Source of the DNA: Oligoflexales bacterium
Lineage (GTDB): Bacteria > Bdellovibrionota_B > Oligoflexia > Oligoflexales > RGVZ01
Assembly (NCBI GenBank): GCA_947479535.1
Contig: CANJZQ010000005.1
Span: 34,680-98,679 of the forward strand
Direction of reading: 5' to 3'
Length of the DNA: 64,000 bases
Part shown: piece after piece, positions 1,418 through 33,257 of the stretch
Layout of the letters: each line of letters starts with the position of its first letter
Numbering within the stretch: the first letter of the stretch is position 1
Made by a program: the position numbers and the translations under genes
Notes under the pieces: generated by a model
The model's database searches: none
What the model was told of the DNA's origin: nothing
Seen by the model: only the letters and a program-made list of their open reading frames with translations

Positions 1418-2527
1418 ATGACAAAAAAGACGCTGGTATTACTTTATGGTGGGCGGTCAACGGAACATGATGTTGCCTGTCGCAGTGCCGCTTTTGTCTA
1501 TCGTTCGCTAAACCGTACAAAGTACGACCTTCATCTTGTCGGCATCGACAAGAGTGGTGACTGGTACCCACAGACTGACACAGCGAAGTGGGAAACAGAC
1601 CCGGCTTCACTTCCGATCCAACGCAACCAAAAGTCCAGTGCAACAGTTCACCATCCGCTGAACCCGCGAGATGCGCTGGCCGCTTTGTGTGGCCTCGAAA
1701 CAAAAAATCTTTCGGACTGCATCTTTTTTCCTATGATCCACGGCGCATCCGGAGAAGACGGAACCTTGCAGGGTTTTTTTGAACTGGCGGGAGTTCCGTT
1801 TATCGGTCCAGACACTTTGGGTTCTGCCGTTGGCATGGACAAGGTGGTTGCCAAGCGGCTTGCTGCTTCCGCCGGAATTCCAGTGGTACCCTTTGTTGAG
1901 GTAAACGATGAAATCTGGGCCGACGGGAAAGAGTCGATTTGCCGCCGCGCCATTGACCTGCTCGGGCTTCCCTTGTTTGTGAAGCCGGCGCGACTTGGTA
2001 GTTCTGTCGGCATCAAGAAAGTGAAAACGGCCGCAGACTTGCCGACAGCGATCGAGCAGGCTCTTGAATTTGACGACAAGGTTCTGATTGAGATCGGCCT
2101 TGAAGTTCGCGAGGTTGAGTGCGCCATGCTCGGGACAACACGGGCAAAGCCATCGGTTGTGGGGGAAGTGATCCTTGACGCGGATTTTTACTCGTATGAA
2201 GAAAAATACGCGAAGGATTCGCGCGCCTCGACCCGGGTTCCTGCCGATCTGACCCCCGAACTGACCCTGGAAATTCAAAAACTTTCTGGCCGGCTGTTTG
2301 AAGTCCTTTCCCTTTATGGCATGGCTCGCGTGGATTGGTTTGTGGATAAAAAAACGGGGCAGATCTACTTCAACGAGGTCAACACCATCCCCGGCTTCAC
2401 TGAAGTTTCCCACTATCCATTGTTCTGGTCCAAATCCGGCAAGGACGGCACCACCTTGTTGTCGGATCTGATCGAACTTGGCCTGCGCCGGGCAAAAGTC
2501 AAAGGCGCGCTAAAGCGCGAGGCTTGA
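1418..2527 (+). CDS. ddl: D-alanine--D-alanine ligase
   Basis: MTKKTLVLLYGGRSTEHDVACRSA..., ATP-grasp motifs (KPARLGSSVGIKKV, EVNTIPGFTEVSHYPLFW). GGAGGA RBS before ATG 1418. Confidence 0.93.
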   Translation: MTKKTLVLLYGGRSTEHDVACRSAAFVYRSLNRTKYDLHLVGIDKSGDWYPQTDTAKWETDPASLPIQRNQKSSATVHHPLNPRDALAALCGLETKNLSDCIFFPMIHGASGEDGTLQGFFELAGVPFIGPDTLGSAVGMDKVVAKRLAASAGIPVVPFVEVNDEIWADGKESICRRAIDLLGLPLFVKPARLGSSVGIKKVKTAADLPTAIEQALEFDDKVLIEIGLEVREVECAMLGTTRAKPSVVGEVILDADFYSYEEKYAKDSRASTRVPADLTPELTLEIQKLSGRLFEVLSLYGMARVDWFVDKKTGQIYFNEVNTIPGFTEVSHYPLFWSKSGKDGTTLLSDLIELGLRRAKVKGALKREA

Positions 2528-24452: not shown

Positions 24453-26279
24453 ATGCTAAATCAACTACACATCAACGGCCTTGCGATCATTGAATCGCTG
24501 AAAATAGATTTTTCTCGCGGTTTCAATGTCATCACAGGTGAAACTGGCGCAGGGAAATCAATCCTCATCAAAGCCCTGAATCTTTTGCTTGGGGCCAAGG
24601 CCTCAGCAGATGCAGTTCGCCATGGACGAGAGGCCGCCTCTGTCAGCGGACAGTTTCTCTTGCCAGCCAATCACAAGGTCACGTCCTGCCTGGAGTCTTA
24701 CGGCATTCCTTTTGAGGCAGCCGGCACTCAGGAATCCGGGAATGAATTGCAAACAGTGATCGTCCGCCGGGTGATTTCTGCAAAGGGGCGCTCGCAAGCA
24801 TGGATCAACGACACGCCGGTTACTTCGGGAACGCTTCGTGAATTTGCCGATGCATTGATCGATGTTTTTGCTCAGCATGAAAATCACAAGCTGCTTGATT
24901 CTGACGGGCACCTCGCCGTTTTGGACCAGTTTCTTGATGACCGGACTTTGATTGCAAAAGTTGAATCAGCCTGGCGCGTGGTGGCGGAAAACACATCCGC
25001 ATTAAAGCAACTTGTTTCCGATCTTGCGCTGAAACAGCGTGATGCTGACTATCTGACGTTCCGCTGCGATGAGCTGCGCAAATTTGATCCCTCGTTGGAA
25101 GAATTCGAAAAGACCAGAAACTTCTGCGATCAGGCGCGCCATAACACTTACCTTGTTTCATCACTGCGCAAGGCCGCTTCGATGATTGACGATGGGGCCG
25201 GCGATGCCTCCATCGAACGCGCCCTGCGTGACACGGGTCGCATTTTACAGCAGGCTGCATCCAAGGTTCCAAGTTTGCAAACACTTGCCGACCAGGCGTT
25301 TTTCGTGGCCGAAAAAGCGGCGGAGCTGAGCTATGCGGTCGGTCAGGAATTATCCAATGCCGACACAAATGAAGATGACGTGGATGCCGCGCAGGCGCGC
25401 CTTGCAGGATACCAAGGGCTCTGTCGCAAGATGGGTGTTCTGGACGCCGAGTCTTTGGTGGCTTCGTGGAGCCGGATGGAGGACGAAGTCCGTTTTTTAG
25501 AATCCGCAGCAAAAGATGCGGCGGACTTGTTTCTAAAAATTGAACGATCCATCGCCTCCTACAAAGATCTATCAGGACTTTTGACGGAAGCTCGTAAAGT
25601 GGCTGCAAAAAAGGCGGGGAAAGCGGTTGGTAAAGAACTTTCCGAACTCGCTATGAAAGATTCAAGGCTGGAAGTCGAGTTTATTGCCGTGCACGGAATG
25701 AATGGCGACGACCTGGATCTCACCTGCCTTGGCGAAGTGATGTCAAAGCGTTGGCGCGATAAAATCATGCCACTGTTTTCCGGTGTTTCTGCGATGGGAG
25801 CGGAGCGTGTGCAGCTGCTCCTTTCTGCCAACCCGGGCGAACCAGCGCTGCCGCTGCATAAAGTTGCCTCAGGCGGTGAAGTTTCACGCATCATGCTGGC
25901 GTTGAAAAAAGCCCTCGCGATGGGTGCCGACACCTGTATTTTGGTTTTCGATGAGATTGACACGGGAATATCAGGTCGCGTGGCCGATATTGTTGGCCGC
26001 AAGCTGGCCGAACTCGCCAAGGGCTTTCAGGTGATTTGCATCTCACACCTGCCGCAAGTTGCCGCTTATGCGGATTCACATTTTCTCGTTCATAAATTCG
26101 GTGCGAGCAACAGGACCGAATCAACCATCACGCGGTTGGATCCTGAAGCCAGTCGAACGGAAATCGCGCGGCTGCTCTCGGGAGATGAGGTTACGGAATC
26201 AAGCCTTGCTCATGCGTCGACGCTTTTGCGAAAGGCTCGCCAGGATCGACAAGAAGACCGGCAAGAAAAACGGCAATAA
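24453..26279 (+). CDS. recN: DNA repair protein RecN
   Basis: GETGAGKSILIKALNLLLGAKAS, ASGGEVSRIMLALK, FDEIDTGISGRVADIVGRKLAELA. Confidence 0.95.
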   Translation: MLNQLHINGLAIIESLKIDFSRGFNVITGETGAGKSILIKALNLLLGAKASADAVRHGREAASVSGQFLLPANHKVTSCLESYGIPFEAAGTQESGNELQTVIVRRVISAKGRSQAWINDTPVTSGTLREFADALIDVFAQHENHKLLDSDGHLAVLDQFLDDRTLIAKVESAWRVVAENTSALKQLVSDLALKQRDADYLTFRCDELRKFDPSLEEFEKTRNFCDQARHNTYLVSSLRKAASMIDDGAGDASIERALRDTGRILQQAASKVPSLQTLADQAFFVAEKAAELSYAVGQELSNADTNEDDVDAAQARLAGYQGLCRKMGVLDAESLVASWSRMEDEVRFLESAAKDAADLFLKIERSIASYKDLSGLLTEARKVAAKKAGKAVGKELSELAMKDSRLEVEFIAVHGMNGDDLDLTCLGEVMSKRWRDKIMPLFSGVSAMGAERVQLLLSANPGEPALPLHKVASGGEVSRIMLALKKALAMGADTCILVFDEIDTGISGRVADIVGRKLAELAKGFQVICISHLPQVAAYADSHFLVHKFGASNRTESTITRLDPEASRTEIARLLSGDEVTESSLAHASTLLRKARQDRQEDRQEKRQ

Positions 26280-26999
26280 GGGCAGCAGCAAGAAGAAAGC
26301 ATCAGGCTGTGCCGCACGACTTGAAGGCCTTCCGCGAATCATTGCGCATCCACCAAAAAGGTCATTCCCCCCCAGTTCATCCCGCGCGTAGAGGTAGGTA
26401 ATTCCATCCACATCATCTTGCGAGACGGATGCGGTTTTGCGTTTGCTGGCATCGTAATACATCAGGGCACTGGTGTCGGTGGAGTGACCAAGCCCCAGGA
26501 TGTGCCCGATTTCGTGTGCCATGACGTCGACAACAAGATTTTCATTTAGGGTTTTGATGTTGGCACTGGCGCCAACCTGCGCGTTGAGCACGAGAACCCC
26601 ATAATTCAAGTGCCCCCCTGCACTAACCTGTTGACCGGTGGCCACGCCAGGGATCACCTCAGGATTGAGGCCAACGGCCGCCATGTCGGCGACACAATGA
26701 ACGGTCGGTGTGGCATCGGATGTTCCGGCCAGTGCGTCTCCGATTGTCGTCGACGAGTCAGAGCCCCGCGTTAGTTGGATCCCCAATGTGGGAATCTGGT
26801 TCCAAACATCAAGGGCTTTGTCCATCATGTCGTTGACGTCGTCGGGGCAGTTTTCCGGATTGATGTGGAATTCGAGGGTTTTGGAGTCCCAGCCTTTTAG
26901 GCCTCCGGATGCGCCGATCAGGGTGAATCCAAATGCAGGTGCCGCAGAAAACATGGCACTGCTGGCAGTGATGAAAAAAACAGAGATGACAGGCTTCAT
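26199..26999 (-). CDS. Secreted matrixin-like (M10) zinc metalloprotease with hydrophobic C-terminal segment
   Basis: Signal peptide; HEIGHILGLGHSTDTSALMYY (HExxHxxGxxH + Met-turn). C-terminus GGCAMI...AFFLLLPLLPFFLPVFLSILASLSQKRRR. Confidence 0.85.
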   Translation of the reverse strand: MKPVISVFFITASSAMFSAAPAFGFTLIGASGGLKGWDSKTLEFHINPENCPDDVNDMMDKALDVWNQIPTLGIQLTRGSDSSTTIGDALAGTSDATPTVHCVADMAAVGLNPEVIPGVATGQQVSAGGHLNYGVLVLNAQVGASANIKTLNENLVVDVMAHEIGHILGLGHSTDTSALMYYDASKRKTASVSQDDVDGITYLYARDELGGNDLFGGCAMIRGRPSSRAAQPDAFFLLLPLLPFFLPVFLSILASLSQKRRRMSKA

Positions 27000-27861: not shown

Positions 27862-30800
27862 TTAGCTGCAGCCAGTGGTTCCACCGCATGAATCGCACTT
27901 TAGACACGCACCGTTGCGGACTAGCGTCATCGCTCCGCACTCCGGACACGGATCTCCTTCGTAACCTTTCATCTTCGCAGCCTTGACCGTGTTGAGCCCT
28001 TTTTTGGCAGCAATCTTCTCTGCCATGCGGTCGAACTCTTCTTCGGACAGGGCCACTGGAACCTTTTTCTCGCCGCCAGTTTGCAGGCCGCCGACGCTGC
28101 TGGAAACGCTGTGCCCGTGAGATCCATTGCTGGAGACCATGACCATACCTGGCATCTCCTCGTCGTCGGAGGACGTCTTGTTGGCGTGCGCCTTGGACTT
28201 CGGGGCATCAATCTCATCCGGAGCAACGTGAACCAGATCCGTACGGCCGAGGTAGTTAAGGGCCAGGTCGCGGAACATGAAGTCGATGATCGACGTTGCG
28301 CGGCGCAGGTTGTCGTGTCCAGTGACGGGGCCGTTCGGTTCAAAACGGGTGAAGGTGAAGACGTCCACGTACTCTTCGAGCGGCACGCCGTACTGCAGAC
28401 CAAGGCTCACGGCGATGGCAAAACAGTTCATGATGGAGCGCAGAAGGGTACCTTCCTTGTTCAAGTCGAGGAAGATCTCGCCAACTTGACCATCCTCGTA
28501 CTCGCCCGTCCTGAGGTAAACCGTGTGTCCACCGATCTTGACCTTTTGGGTGTAGCCGCTGCGCTTGCTCGGGAGGGAACGGCGGGTGCGGACATACTCC
28601 TTGACGATCTGGGTGGTGATCTTCTTGATCTGCTCTGCTTTTGGCGCGGAATAGTCGACCTGGTCGATGATATCCAGCCATTCGGTGGCCGTGGCATTGA
28701 GGGGCTGGCTCAGTTTTGAACCATCGCGATAGAGTGCGTTGGCCTTGAGCATCATATTCCAAGACTTCTTGTAGGACTTGGCGACGTCATCCAAATTGGC
28801 TTCAAATGGCAAGTTGATCGTCTTGCTAATTGCGCCCGAGATAAATGGTTGGGCGGCAGCCATCATGCCGATGTGGTTGTCGGCCGGGATGTAGCGAACA
28901 CCTTTGCGACCACACTTGCTCGCACAGTCAAAGACCGGCAAATGGGCGGCTTTCAGGTGCGGAGCACCCTCCACCGTCATCGTGCCACACACATACTCGT
29001 TCGCGGCCTCAATCTCGGCAGCCGAGAATCCAAGCAGCTTGAGGATGTTGCAATCGATCGGTTCCAGATCTTCGGCTTTGATGCCGAGTTTCGACGTACA
29101 AAACTCTTCCCCGAGGACCCACTTGTTAAAGGCAAACGTGATGTCGAATGCCTGCGGCAATTCTTTCTCCACCGAGGCCAAAACTTCAGGTGTAAGCCCT
29201 TTGGCTGCCAGGGTTTCGTGGTTGATGCCAGGTGCTCCCTTTAGAGTTCCCCGACCCATGCAGTAGGCAATGATGTCTGCCGTTTGCGCATCACTGTAGC
29301 CAAGGTTCGTGAGGGCCACCGGTACCGACTGGTTGATGATTTTGAAGTAACCACCACCGGCCAGTTTTTTGAATTTGACCAGGGCGAAGTCCGGCTCGAT
29401 TCCGGTTGTGTCGCAATCCATCAGCAACCCGATGGTGCCCGTTGGAGCGATCACAGTGGTCTGTGCGTTGCGGAAGCCGTGCTTTTCACCCATGGCAAGG
29501 GCTTCATCCCACGCTTTTTTCGCCGCCGCACTGAGGTCCTGCGGGCAAATCTTGTGATTGATCTCAAGGGGCTTGATGGTGAGCCCGTCGTATTTGCCGT
29601 TTGCATGAGCCGCACTGTGATGATTGCGGATGACGCGCAGCATGTCTTTTTTGTTTTTTGCATAGTTCGGGAATGTACCCAAGGCTGCCGCCATTTCTGC
29701 ACTCGTCCGGTAGCTTTCTCCGCACATGATGGCGGTTATTGATCCTGTAAAAGCCAGTGCTTCCGCAGAACCGTAGGGCATTCCCATCCGCATCAAAACG
29801 GCACCGATGTTGGCGTATCCTAAACCAAGCGTGCGGAAATCCCAGCTCTTGCGCGCGATTTCCTTGCTCGGGAACTGAGCCATTTGCACCGAGATGTCGA
29901 GGATCACGGTCCAGATGCGAGATGCATGGATGAAGGAATCAATGTCGAAGCCATTTTTTTCATCATAGAACGTCAGCAGGTTGAGCGATGCCAGGTTGCA
30001 TGCCGTGTCATCAAGGAACATGTATTCGGAGCACGGGTTGGATGCATTGATCCGGCCATCTTGGGGACAGGTGTGCCATTCGTTGATGGTCGTGTCGAAT
30101 TGGACGCCGGGATCAGCGCAGGACCAAGCCGCGTAGACGATCTTGTCCCACAGCTCGGAGGCCTTCACCGTGCGCATGGTCTCACCCGTCATGCGACTCT
30201 TGAGGGCCCACTCCGTCCCGCGTTCTGCGGCATCCATGAAGGAGTTCGGAATGCGCACAGAGTTGTTCGAGTTTTGTCCCGAAACGGTGCTGTAGGCTTC
30301 GGAGTTCCAATCTGTGTTGAAAGATTCGATTTTGAGTTTGTAGTTACCTTGCTTTGCCAGATCGATGACGCGCTGAACGTAATTCAAAGGGATATAGGCT
30401 TTGCGAGATTTTGCGATCGCTTCGCGCAGCTGTTCGTTTTTCGCCGGGTTGAAACGGTCATCCGTTTTAGCTGCATCCGCAGGAACCGAGCAGGCCTTCA
30501 AGATGGCGTTCAGGTGTTCTTCCATCGCCTTGGATCCGGCGACGAGAGAGGCAACTTTTTGTTCTTCCTCCACCTTCCATTCGATGAATTTTTCGATGTC
30601 TGGATGGTCTAGATCCAAACAAACCATTTTTGCAGCCCGGCGTGTGGTGCCACCACTTTTAATAGCACCAGCGGCGCGATCACCAATTTTAAGAAACGAC
30701 ATGAGGCCCGACGAGATTCCGCCACCAGAGAGCGGCTCGCCTTCGCCGCGGATGCCAGAAAAGTTGGTGCCAGTGCCGCTGCCGTATTTGAACAGGCGGG

Positions 30801-31368
30801 CTTCGCGGGTCCACAAATCCATGATCCCACCTTCGTTGACGAGATCGTCACCGACCGATTGGATGAAGCAGGCGTGGGGTTGTGGGCGTTCGTAGGCGCT
30901 GGTGGATTTCTGGATGCGATTCGTCTCAGGGTCTACATAGTAGTGGCCTTGGCTGGAGCCCTTCAGGCCGTATGCGAAGTAGAGCCCAGTGTTGAACCAC
31001 TGGGGGCTGTTAGGCGCACACATCTGACGCGCCAGCATGTGGCAGGTCTCATCATAGAAGGTTGCGGCATCTTCTTCGGTGTCGAAATAGCCGTAGCGGG
31101 TACCCCAATCGGCCCAGCAACCAGCGAGGCGATGAAACACCTGGCGGCTGTCGGATTCAGCGCCGATCTTCGGGATCCCTGCGCGACGCAGGTATTTTTG
31201 CGCGAGGATGTCCGTGGCGACCTGACTCCAGTGATCCGGCACCGTGACTTTCATTTGGCGACTGGCTTTACTGCCGTCGGAGTTCTTCAACTCTGAAGTG
31301 CGTTCAACGAACTTCAGCCCGTCATAGGGTTGGCCTTTGGTTTTGACAAACAATCTCTTAAATTTCAT
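27862..31368 (-). CDS. nrdJ: Vitamin B12-dependent (class II) ribonucleoside-diphosphate reductase
   Basis: [78 protein letters not shown]-terminal CPECG...[10 protein letters not shown]. Confidence 0.96.
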
Positions 31369-31525
31369 GCCCGCACTCCTTGTGACGGCATTGTGAAACA
31401 AATTTCAGGTAAAACTTGGCCAAGGCAGTCTAAAACCGCATTTTTCCGTGTCTCGCCAGGATGTTGTAGAGGAACCAGCTACACATGATGATAGCCAGCC
31501 AAAGAAGGCGATGTCAACGGTCGAC

Positions 31526-31541
31526 ACACAAAATATGGTGT
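31526..31541. promoter_or_regulatory. NrdR-box-like palindrome 1
   Basis: ACACAAAATATGGTGT; compare the NrdR consensus acaCwAtATaTwGtgt. Confidence 0.65.
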
Positions 31542-31548
31542 CCACAAT

Positions 31549-31557
31549 TTATCCACA
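31549..31557 (+). promoter_or_regulatory. DnaA box (perfect TTATCCACA)
   Basis: Exact match, located between the two NrdR-like boxes; a degenerate GTGTCCACA lies 11 bp earlier (31538-31546). Confidence 0.65.
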
Positions 31558-31573
31558 ACACCATAGGTTGTGT
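31558..31573. promoter_or_regulatory. NrdR-box-like palindrome 2
   Basis: ACACCATAGGTTGTGT, start-to-start distance of 32 bp from box 1. Confidence 0.6.
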
Positions 31574-31661
31574 GTTGTTTTTTGGCGCTCTTGGCTATGA
31601 TGGCGAAAAAATTGATGGTTCAGAGAATTTTTTAGAACGGGCCATGGGTTTTTCCAACAGG

Positions 31662-31670
31662 TTATCCACA
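31662..31670 (+). promoter_or_regulatory. DnaA box (perfect TTATCCACA)
   Basis: Exact match in the nrdJ upstream intergenic region. Confidence 0.6.
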
Positions 31671-31700
31671 GGAGCTGTTTTGGGGGTAAAAAAAGGCTGT

Positions 31701-33257
31701 TTAAAAGGCGATCACGCGCGGGATGCCAGCAGCTTTTTCTTGACGTTCCGTCTCGGGGCCGCGGCTTTCCAACGGATCATGGGTGTCGATGGCGGTTGAA
31801 GGCGTAGACGCGCTGTCCACCAATGGTTTGCGGATTGCTGTCATCCGCTTTTCCGAAAGGTAAACCTGAATGGGCAACCTGATGGTTTGCTCCTTGTTGA
31901 TTTTTAGGACCTGACTGGTCCGGCGGCGAACCCCATCCACGCCAGTCGACATGACATAGTGGACAACTTGGTACTGGCCGGCAACCAGAGGCATGCGCGT
32001 TGGTCTGTCGAAAACAACATCCAGAGTCACTCCACTTAATCCTGCATCGTGCGCCTCAACCCGCAAAAGGTCGGTGATTTGGCCTTTGACGTAAACGGGC
32101 TTGGGGATGATTTCGAGATAACCAAGGTGAATCTCTGAATCAGAAATGCCTTTGGGCATGCGGTATCTGACGTTGCGCGAACCTTCGACGCCAACTTGGA
32201 CCTCTGGTTCAAAGAACAGCAGGGGAACATCGGTCACGCCCGTCGTAAACGGGAAGGGCTGGCCCGGTTGGTATAACCTCACTTCAAGATCTCCAAGGCA
32301 GTTCCACTCCCACGGTGAGCAGCCTTGATCCACCTTGATGCTTCGTGCCGGTAAATGAAGGGATTCACCCTCTTCCAATTCCACCACCTTTGGCTGGGTT
32401 GACCCGCTGAGGCGAAGCATCGTTTGACCCGGCAACACCGCATACTCTTCGTTGAGATTGAACCAGTGCCCGTCGTTCACTTCTACAAACAGCGGCGTGC
32501 CGCGAATTTGTGAGGACAGGTCAAGGTCGACCTTGGGTGATGTCATGACCTTGATGAAGGCTGGGCTGATGATGCGTTTTTCGCCATCGGCAAGGGTAAC
32601 CTTCATCTTGGTTCCGTTGACCTCGACTTCGTAGTTCCCGGGCAGCAGGTAAAGCCATTTCCCAAATTGCTGCTTCTCTGTCACCGAAACAAGGTCAGCC
32701 GCTGGTGATACGAAATAACTTAGATCGCCCGGTGTGTTCGGGCTTGCTTCGACCTTGATGGCAGAAAGCAGGAAACTTTTCACGGCTCCAGCCTTGGTTT
32801 CATCGCTGAATTCGAGCGACAGGGGCACCATACCGACAAGGATGTCATGGCTTTCGCCAATCATGCTGAGGCTAAAGCGATTCGAGAAATACTGGCGCGA
32901 GCGCGTTTTCTCGGCTCGTTTGCACTGGATGGAGAATTTGTCGTCTTCGGCCGGTGCCATGGCCGGAACGAAATTAATTTGGTGTGCGGTGAGCTGCTTG
33001 CGCTTTCCGGCGTAAATCCTGACAGATTGGCTTGAGCAGTCGGCAAGGACGAGATAATTGCCCGCCGGCAACTTGACGTCCTCGTTGAAAGTTCCCACGA
33101 GTTCAGACACGAGTTGGATCGGGTTCTCGGAATCTACCCGGTAGATCTCATAAAGGCCGCCCTTGGAGCCGCTGACGTTGAGTGTTCCGTCGCTGCCGGG
33201 GAAGTGACACCCAACAGCCGCCAAGGAACAAACAAAGACCAGGATAATCCGTTTCAC
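31701..33257 (-). CDS. Putative lipoprotein, hypothetical
   Basis: GTG start giving VKRIILVFVCSLAAVGC lipobox; beta-rich body. Confidence 0.75.
   Translation of the reverse strand: MKRIILVFVCSLAAVGCHFPGSDGTLNVSGSKGGLYEIYRVDSENPIQLVSELVGTFNEDVKLPAGNYLVLADCSSQSVRIYAGKRKQLTAHQINFVPAMAPAEDDKFSIQCKRAEKTRSRQYFSNRFSLSMIGESHDILVGMVPLSLEFSDETKAGAVKSFLLSAIKVEASPNTPGDLSYFVSPAADLVSVTEKQQFGKWLYLLPGNYEVEVNGTKMKVTLADGEKRIISPAFIKVMTSPKVDLDLSSQIRGTPLFVEVNDGHWFNLNEEYAVLPGQTMLRLSGSTQPKVVELEEGESLHLPARSIKVDQGCSPWEWNCLGDLEVRLYQPGQPFPFTTGVTDVPLLFFEPEVQVGVEGSRNVRYRMPKGISDSEIHLGYLEIIPKPVYVKGQITDLLRVEAHDAGLSGVTLDVVFDRPTRMPLVAGQYQVVHYVMSTGVDGVRRRTSQVLKINKEQTIRLPIQVYLSEKRMTAIRKPLVDSASTPSTAIDTHDPLESRGPETERQEKAAGIPRVIAF

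Follow-up and report, generated by a model that had tools for sequence, protein, structure and literature searches.

Does the gene for a class II ribonucleotide reductase (RNR), nrdJ, answer to both NrdR and DnaA in an Oligoflexales bacterium, and how could the two proteins share one short stretch of DNA? The coupling between dNTP supply and replication initiation is established mainly for the class I RNR of Escherichia coli. At nrdAB of E. coli and Salmonella, NrdR and DnaA have both been reported to be active (PMC12176259, PMC11317965, PMC8203912, PMC2892513), as has Fis. An earlier note had described NrdR-like boxes and DnaA boxes upstream of nrdJ in the window (the whole 64,000-nucleotide stretch of DNA that was analyzed), and had likened their layout to that of E. 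coli nrdAB.

The assignment of the gene to class II in that note agrees with a match to the vitamin B12-dependent RNR family (NF005736, 1869.6 bits; cut-off 1737). The nrdJ reading frame stays open to 31401 (window 27862-31401, minus strand). As read from the sequence, the likely start is the ATG at 31366-31368, which has a Shine-Dalgarno sequence (AAGGAG) just upstream, and the ORF upstream of nrdJ, also on the minus strand, ends at 31701. Another minus-strand ORF in the window (26199-26999), adjoining recN, gave a weak metalloprotease-family match that is far below the cut-off (NF041905, 29.9 bits). The host genome is an Oligoflexales MAG of 2.40 Mb in 72 contigs (90.7% complete), and its close relatives carry the labels Oligoflexales or Pseudobacteriovorax MAGs. 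A search of this 90.7% complete genome with NrdJ found no class I RNR relative, and a search for class III RNRs found none either; nrdJ appears to be its sole RNR, subject to that completeness. The genome encodes the nrdR gene on which the earlier reading depends (TIGR00244, 174.5 bits; G000:C2:7852-8289), with Zn-ribbon and ATP-cone present. Its DnaA is canonical (Bac_DnaA_C, 108 bits) and has the domain IV box-recognition motif GGKDHTTV. No notable Rfam match, to a cobalamin riboswitch or to any other leader RNA, was obtained in 31200-31900. The gene and the elements upstream of it are as follows, with positions relative to a predicted transcription start site (TSS) at ~31481.

27862-31368, minus strand: nrdJ, vitamin B12-dependent (class II) ribonucleotide reductase
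31488-31517, minus strand: predicted sigma-70-type promoter, TTGACA (31517-31512), 18 bp, TATCAT (31493-31488); 11 of 12 consensus matches
31526-31541, minus strand: proximal NrdR box, ACACCATATTTTGTGT (ACACAAAATATGGTGT on the forward strand), ~-45 to -60
31538-31546, minus strand: degenerate half of a double DnaA box, TGTGGACAC (GTGTCCACA forward), with TGTGG conserved
31549-31557, minus strand: consensus half of the double DnaA box, TGTGGATAA (TTATCCACA forward), abutting the distal NrdR box
31558-31573, minus strand: distal NrdR box, ACACAACCTATGGTGT (ACACCATAGGTTGTGT forward), ~-77 to -92
31662-31670, minus strand: distal DnaA box, TGTGGATAA (TTATCCACA forward), about -181 to -189

On re-reading the sequence, all five boxes lie where the earlier note had placed them. 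The NrdR boxes do start exactly 32 bp apart, and the 16-bp gap between them does hold a perfect DnaA box; the degenerate box, described as lying 11 bp before the perfect one, was also recovered, and the two have the same orientation and a 2-bp gap. The gap is thereby filled by a double DnaA box, TGTGGATAA-AT-TGTGGACAC, at about -57 to -76. This two-site unit went unremarked in the earlier note, as did the downstream shift of the promoter and the lack of DnaA sites in the class I promoters of relatives. The degenerate 9-mer consists of the linker TGTGG and the ACAC of the proximal NrdR box, with which it shares 4 bp (31538-31541), and this overlap makes the suggested competition between NrdR and DnaA plausible. 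In the direction of nrdJ, the order is distal DnaA box, distal NrdR box, TGTGGATAA, AT, TGTGG, proximal NrdR box, 8 bp and TTGACA, which puts the predicted -35 and -10 downstream of both NrdR boxes; the search of the upstream region for sigma-70-type promoters returned 2 sites where 0.3 were expected. From the distal DnaA box it is 97 bp to the distal NrdR box, measured between their starts, and 113 bp to the DnaA box in the linker. The distal NrdR box is non-canonical, with AG/CT at its center in place of AT, and in this it resembles the recently described box 2 of E. coli nrdAB (AG).

Chance occurrence of the DnaA boxes at nrdJ was rejected on genome counts, shuffles and conservation. The 2.4-Mb genome has 17 copies of the perfect TTATCCACA (6 for the reversed control), two of them within 122 bp at nrdJ, and its sole copy of the double unit TGTGGNTAN-(2,3)-TGTGG is the one at nrdJ. 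The two-box NrdR pattern (≤2 mismatches) has its single site in the genome here, the reversed control also giving 1. A composite query, ACAC-N8-GTGT-TGTGGRTANNNTGTGGACAC, was then run with up to 3 mismatches against 60 genomes of the phylum and a reversed control; it matched exactly once in each of 14 genomes, every time upstream of nrdJ, and had no match in the other 46 genomes or in the control. Upstream of the distal NrdR box, at 20-200 bp from it, nine representative lineages together have nine exact DnaA boxes, against a shuffle expectation of 0.02 and a maximum of 1 in 2000 shuffles, figures that overstate independence since the lineages are related. Kinship alone is nevertheless insufficient to explain the match, because the flanks have diverged. 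We left aside a third perfect DnaA box (window 2341-2349), which falls within a D-Ala-D-Ala-ligase-like ORF.

Within the order, nrdJ is present in 16 genomes; the NrdJ matches at L007 (G004) and L013 (G018) each contain one in-frame stop (TAG and TAA, respectively). The NrdR and DnaA boxes are kept in the orthologous promoters of 14 of these genomes, and the nested arrangement spans seven genera of Oligoflexales. Two of the conditions that the earlier note had named as refuting it, absence of nrdR and lack of conserved boxes, were thus checked, and neither came out against it. All 14 nrdJ genomes with NrdR bear the composite, and the two that do not bear it (G012 and G020; family f4) are the same two that have no NrdR. 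We scored this joint loss as one event, since G012 and G020 are one lineage and the upstream DNA of G012 looks rearranged. In G012 (L015), the DNA before nrdJ contains partial copies of the gene's 5' end, such as CTAACAAGACCAGCCCTTACGAGGGGCT, and neither NrdR nor DnaA boxes were found there. Absence of the composite from genomes that have no nrdJ is expected anyway; what is informative is its confinement to nrdJ and its presence wherever nrdJ and NrdR co-occur. NrdJ homologues from other phyla (Treponema, Nitrospiraceae and Gemmataceae) have no DnaA box in the linker, although some have weaker NrdR-like pairs, so that there is no sign of a general layout.

Across the nine representative lineages, the linker has the consensus TGTGGrTA-nnn-TGTGG. 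Positions 1-8 (TGTGGATA) average 1.72 bits per position and positions 12-16 (TGTGG) 1.90, compared with 0.68 for positions 9-11 and about 0.5-0.85 for the flanks, while the distal and proximal NrdR boxes average 1.53 and 1.75 bits, respectively. This profile is shaped like that of binding sites. Several linkers deviate from the DnaA consensus (TGTGGGTAT in G004 and G006, TGTTGATAA in G025 and TGTGGAAAA in G014), and the second DnaA half has 2-3 mismatches to it in every genome; conservation of this half is partly non-independent, because bases are shared with the NrdR box. All 14 genomes have a DnaA box with 0-1 mismatch at 95-136 bp from the distal NrdR box, on its upstream side. TTGACA follows the proximal NrdR box after 8-9 bp in 13 of the 14 genomes, the remaining one having TTGACT.

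In the order, the dnaA-dnaN intergenic regions of the relatives G029, G023 and G040 carry TGTGGATAA arrays with 2-3 bp spacing, which are probably oriC:

L109:2951-3305, L110:2473-2929 and L112:2398-2715: arrays of TGTGGATAA units in two convergent arms

The host genome has a weak version of such an array only, after dnaA (L090). It also has a perfect DnaA box 170 bp upstream of the dnaA match, and TGTGGGTAA, the linker variant of some genomes, occurs just after dnaA as well. The nrdJ linker has the same one-orientation TGTGGATAA units at 2-3 bp spacing, but each of the two convergent arms of an array comprises several units, whereas nrdJ has one two-site unit and a distal box. The identity of the linker with these oriC-type arrays supports DnaA as its probable ligand. 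Closely spaced pairs of DnaA boxes, that of nrdA included, are favored by E. coli DnaA in ChIP-seq (PMC11317965).

The class I nrdA promoters of the phylum provided a comparison within the same NrdR family. Using our own consensus matrix for scoring, we found NrdR pairs with boxes 31-32 bp apart at 26 of them. In 25/26 pairs, TTGAC (-35) lies in the linker or the distal box and the proximal box contains a -10-like sequence; a DnaA box wholly within the linker is seen in none of the 26. The class I operators thus hold -35 and -10 inside, whereas at nrdJ the promoter is displaced downstream and a DnaA unit occupies the linker. Because class I linkers are without a DnaA box, the nrdJ linker sequence is not an intrinsic preference of NrdR; G014 has both linker types, class I and nrdJ, under one NrdR. 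The exception to the class I arrangement is L077 (class I nrdA of G008), where a one-mismatch DnaA box, TGTTGATAA, spans box and linker and TTGACA follows the proximal box, as at nrdJ. No convincing NrdR pair was found at the class I promoters of the NrdR-less genomes G016, G022, G035 and G040.

The earlier note's claim of the same layout does not hold: at E. coli nrdAB (L092) the two DnaA sites stand apart from the NrdR boxes, 69 bp upstream of the distal one. What the two RNR promoters share is a pair of NrdR boxes together with a double DnaA box. The E. coli enzyme is class I, its DnaA unit lies outside the NrdR pair, and the functional pair (boxes 1 and 2; the center of box 2 is AG) lies downstream of the promoter (PMC12176259). 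In contrast, nrdJ encodes a class II enzyme and its DnaA unit sits nested inside the NrdR pair, with DnaA and NrdR sites alike upstream of the predicted -35. The nrdRJ operator of Streptomyces coelicolor shares with nrdJ a class II RNR and two NrdR boxes about three turns apart; the paper describing it (PMC9110341) does not mention DnaA, whereas nrdJ here has a DnaA unit. Our literature search found no paper that reports a class II RNR with DnaA boxes, or DnaA boxes within the operator of NrdR, but it was thin on subscription literature and Rodionov and Gelfand (2005) may precede us, which makes this a weak sign of novelty. A Cupriavidus paper naming both nrdJ and a DnaA box was rejected as a precedent, the terms being in unrelated sections. 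The composite of predicted NrdR and DnaA sites at nrdJ is real, and it would be a variant form of NrdR plus DnaA control.

Other explanations for this region were weighed. The two NrdR boxes fall within an inverted repeat whose 18-nt arms (31524-31541 and 31558-31575) are 89% complementary, and a weak terminator-like match occurs on the plus strand, so the repeat might be read as an RNA hairpin or terminator rather than as protein sites. We rejected this reading and give it next to no weight: each arm is itself an NrdR palindrome, the repeat is upstream of the predicted TSS, there is no meaningful Rfam match, and the boxes resemble each other less in other genera, such as in G005. Also very improbable is a residual NrdR-occluded promoter within the boxes (TTGTGG ... 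TATTTT/TATATT), in the manner of class I nrdA, with an incidental likeness to DnaA boxes. The class I -35 does begin at this linker position, but as a -35 TTGTGG is poor, the conserved promoter is a near-consensus TTGACA one further downstream, and the linker has TGTGG again at its opposite end, the bases in the middle being free to vary. Somewhat less improbable, but still improbable, is that the linker is an extended NrdR recognition element, with NrdR or its bending favoring TGTGG inside the pair. TGTGG adjoins each NrdR box, and the motif and NrdR were lost together in G012 and G020; against this stand the quite different linkers of the class I NrdR pairs of the phylum, the equality of the linker unit with the oriC array units, and the second DnaA box, conserved about 100 bp away and outside the NrdR pair.

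The rival that deserves the most attention, although we consider it unlikely, is that DnaA and NrdR are both repressors, in which DnaA-ATP on the linker and distal boxes would loop or block the promoter after initiation and NrdR would add dNTP feedback, in parallel or cooperatively rather than by competing. E. coli nrdAB is repressed by high DnaA-ATP and activated by DnaA-ADP or low DnaA-ATP (PMC8203912), and the conserved DnaA boxes, 112-125 bp apart, could support a loop. However, the NrdR and DnaA sites are both upstream of the predicted -35, and joint occupancy is disfavored by the overlap of the degenerate DnaA half with the proximal NrdR box, together with the sharp kinking of DNA by NrdR (PMC9110341).

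We instead favor, as the somewhat more probable reading of the sequence, that nrdJ is controlled by dNTP level via NrdR and by replication-initiation state via DnaA, with NrdR excluding DnaA and acting partly as an anti-activator. DnaA, probably DnaA-ATP bound cooperatively to the consensus and degenerate boxes, would occupy the 16-bp linker, possibly bridge to the distal DnaA box near -185, and act from upstream on the promoter that starts just past the NrdR operator. An NrdR tetramer engages a pair of boxes separated by about three helical turns, kinking the DNA at both (PMC9110341). As dATP rises, tetramers loaded with dATP and ATP would clamp the boxes on either side, put kinks in the DNA and keep DnaA out. 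Because the NrdR boxes flank the DnaA unit and partly overlap it, we infer that simultaneous binding of the two proteins is unlikely. Since the predicted promoter is outside the NrdR operator, repression would proceed by eviction of the DnaA activator rather than by covering -35 and -10, and NrdR at nrdJ would be at least partly an anti-activator, unlike at class I promoters. The proximal NrdR box (-45 to -60) may also hinder the alpha-CTD of RNA polymerase, which would be direct repression by NrdR. Activation is the preferred sign of the DnaA effect, but it could go either way, as high DnaA-ATP represses E. coli nrdAB. More tentatively, NrdR may be a dNTP-sensing anti-activator that evicts DnaA from a unit in its own operator, so that a 48-bp element computes "replication initiating AND dNTPs low".

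A lineage distant from E. coli apparently sets NrdR and DnaA inputs on a class II enzyme, and the nesting of the sites lets their integration be read from the DNA. The nrdJ operator offers a compact, testable case for the interplay of DnaA and NrdR. Because nrdJ appears to be the only RNR of the genome, the whole de novo supply of dNTPs would be governed by this element.
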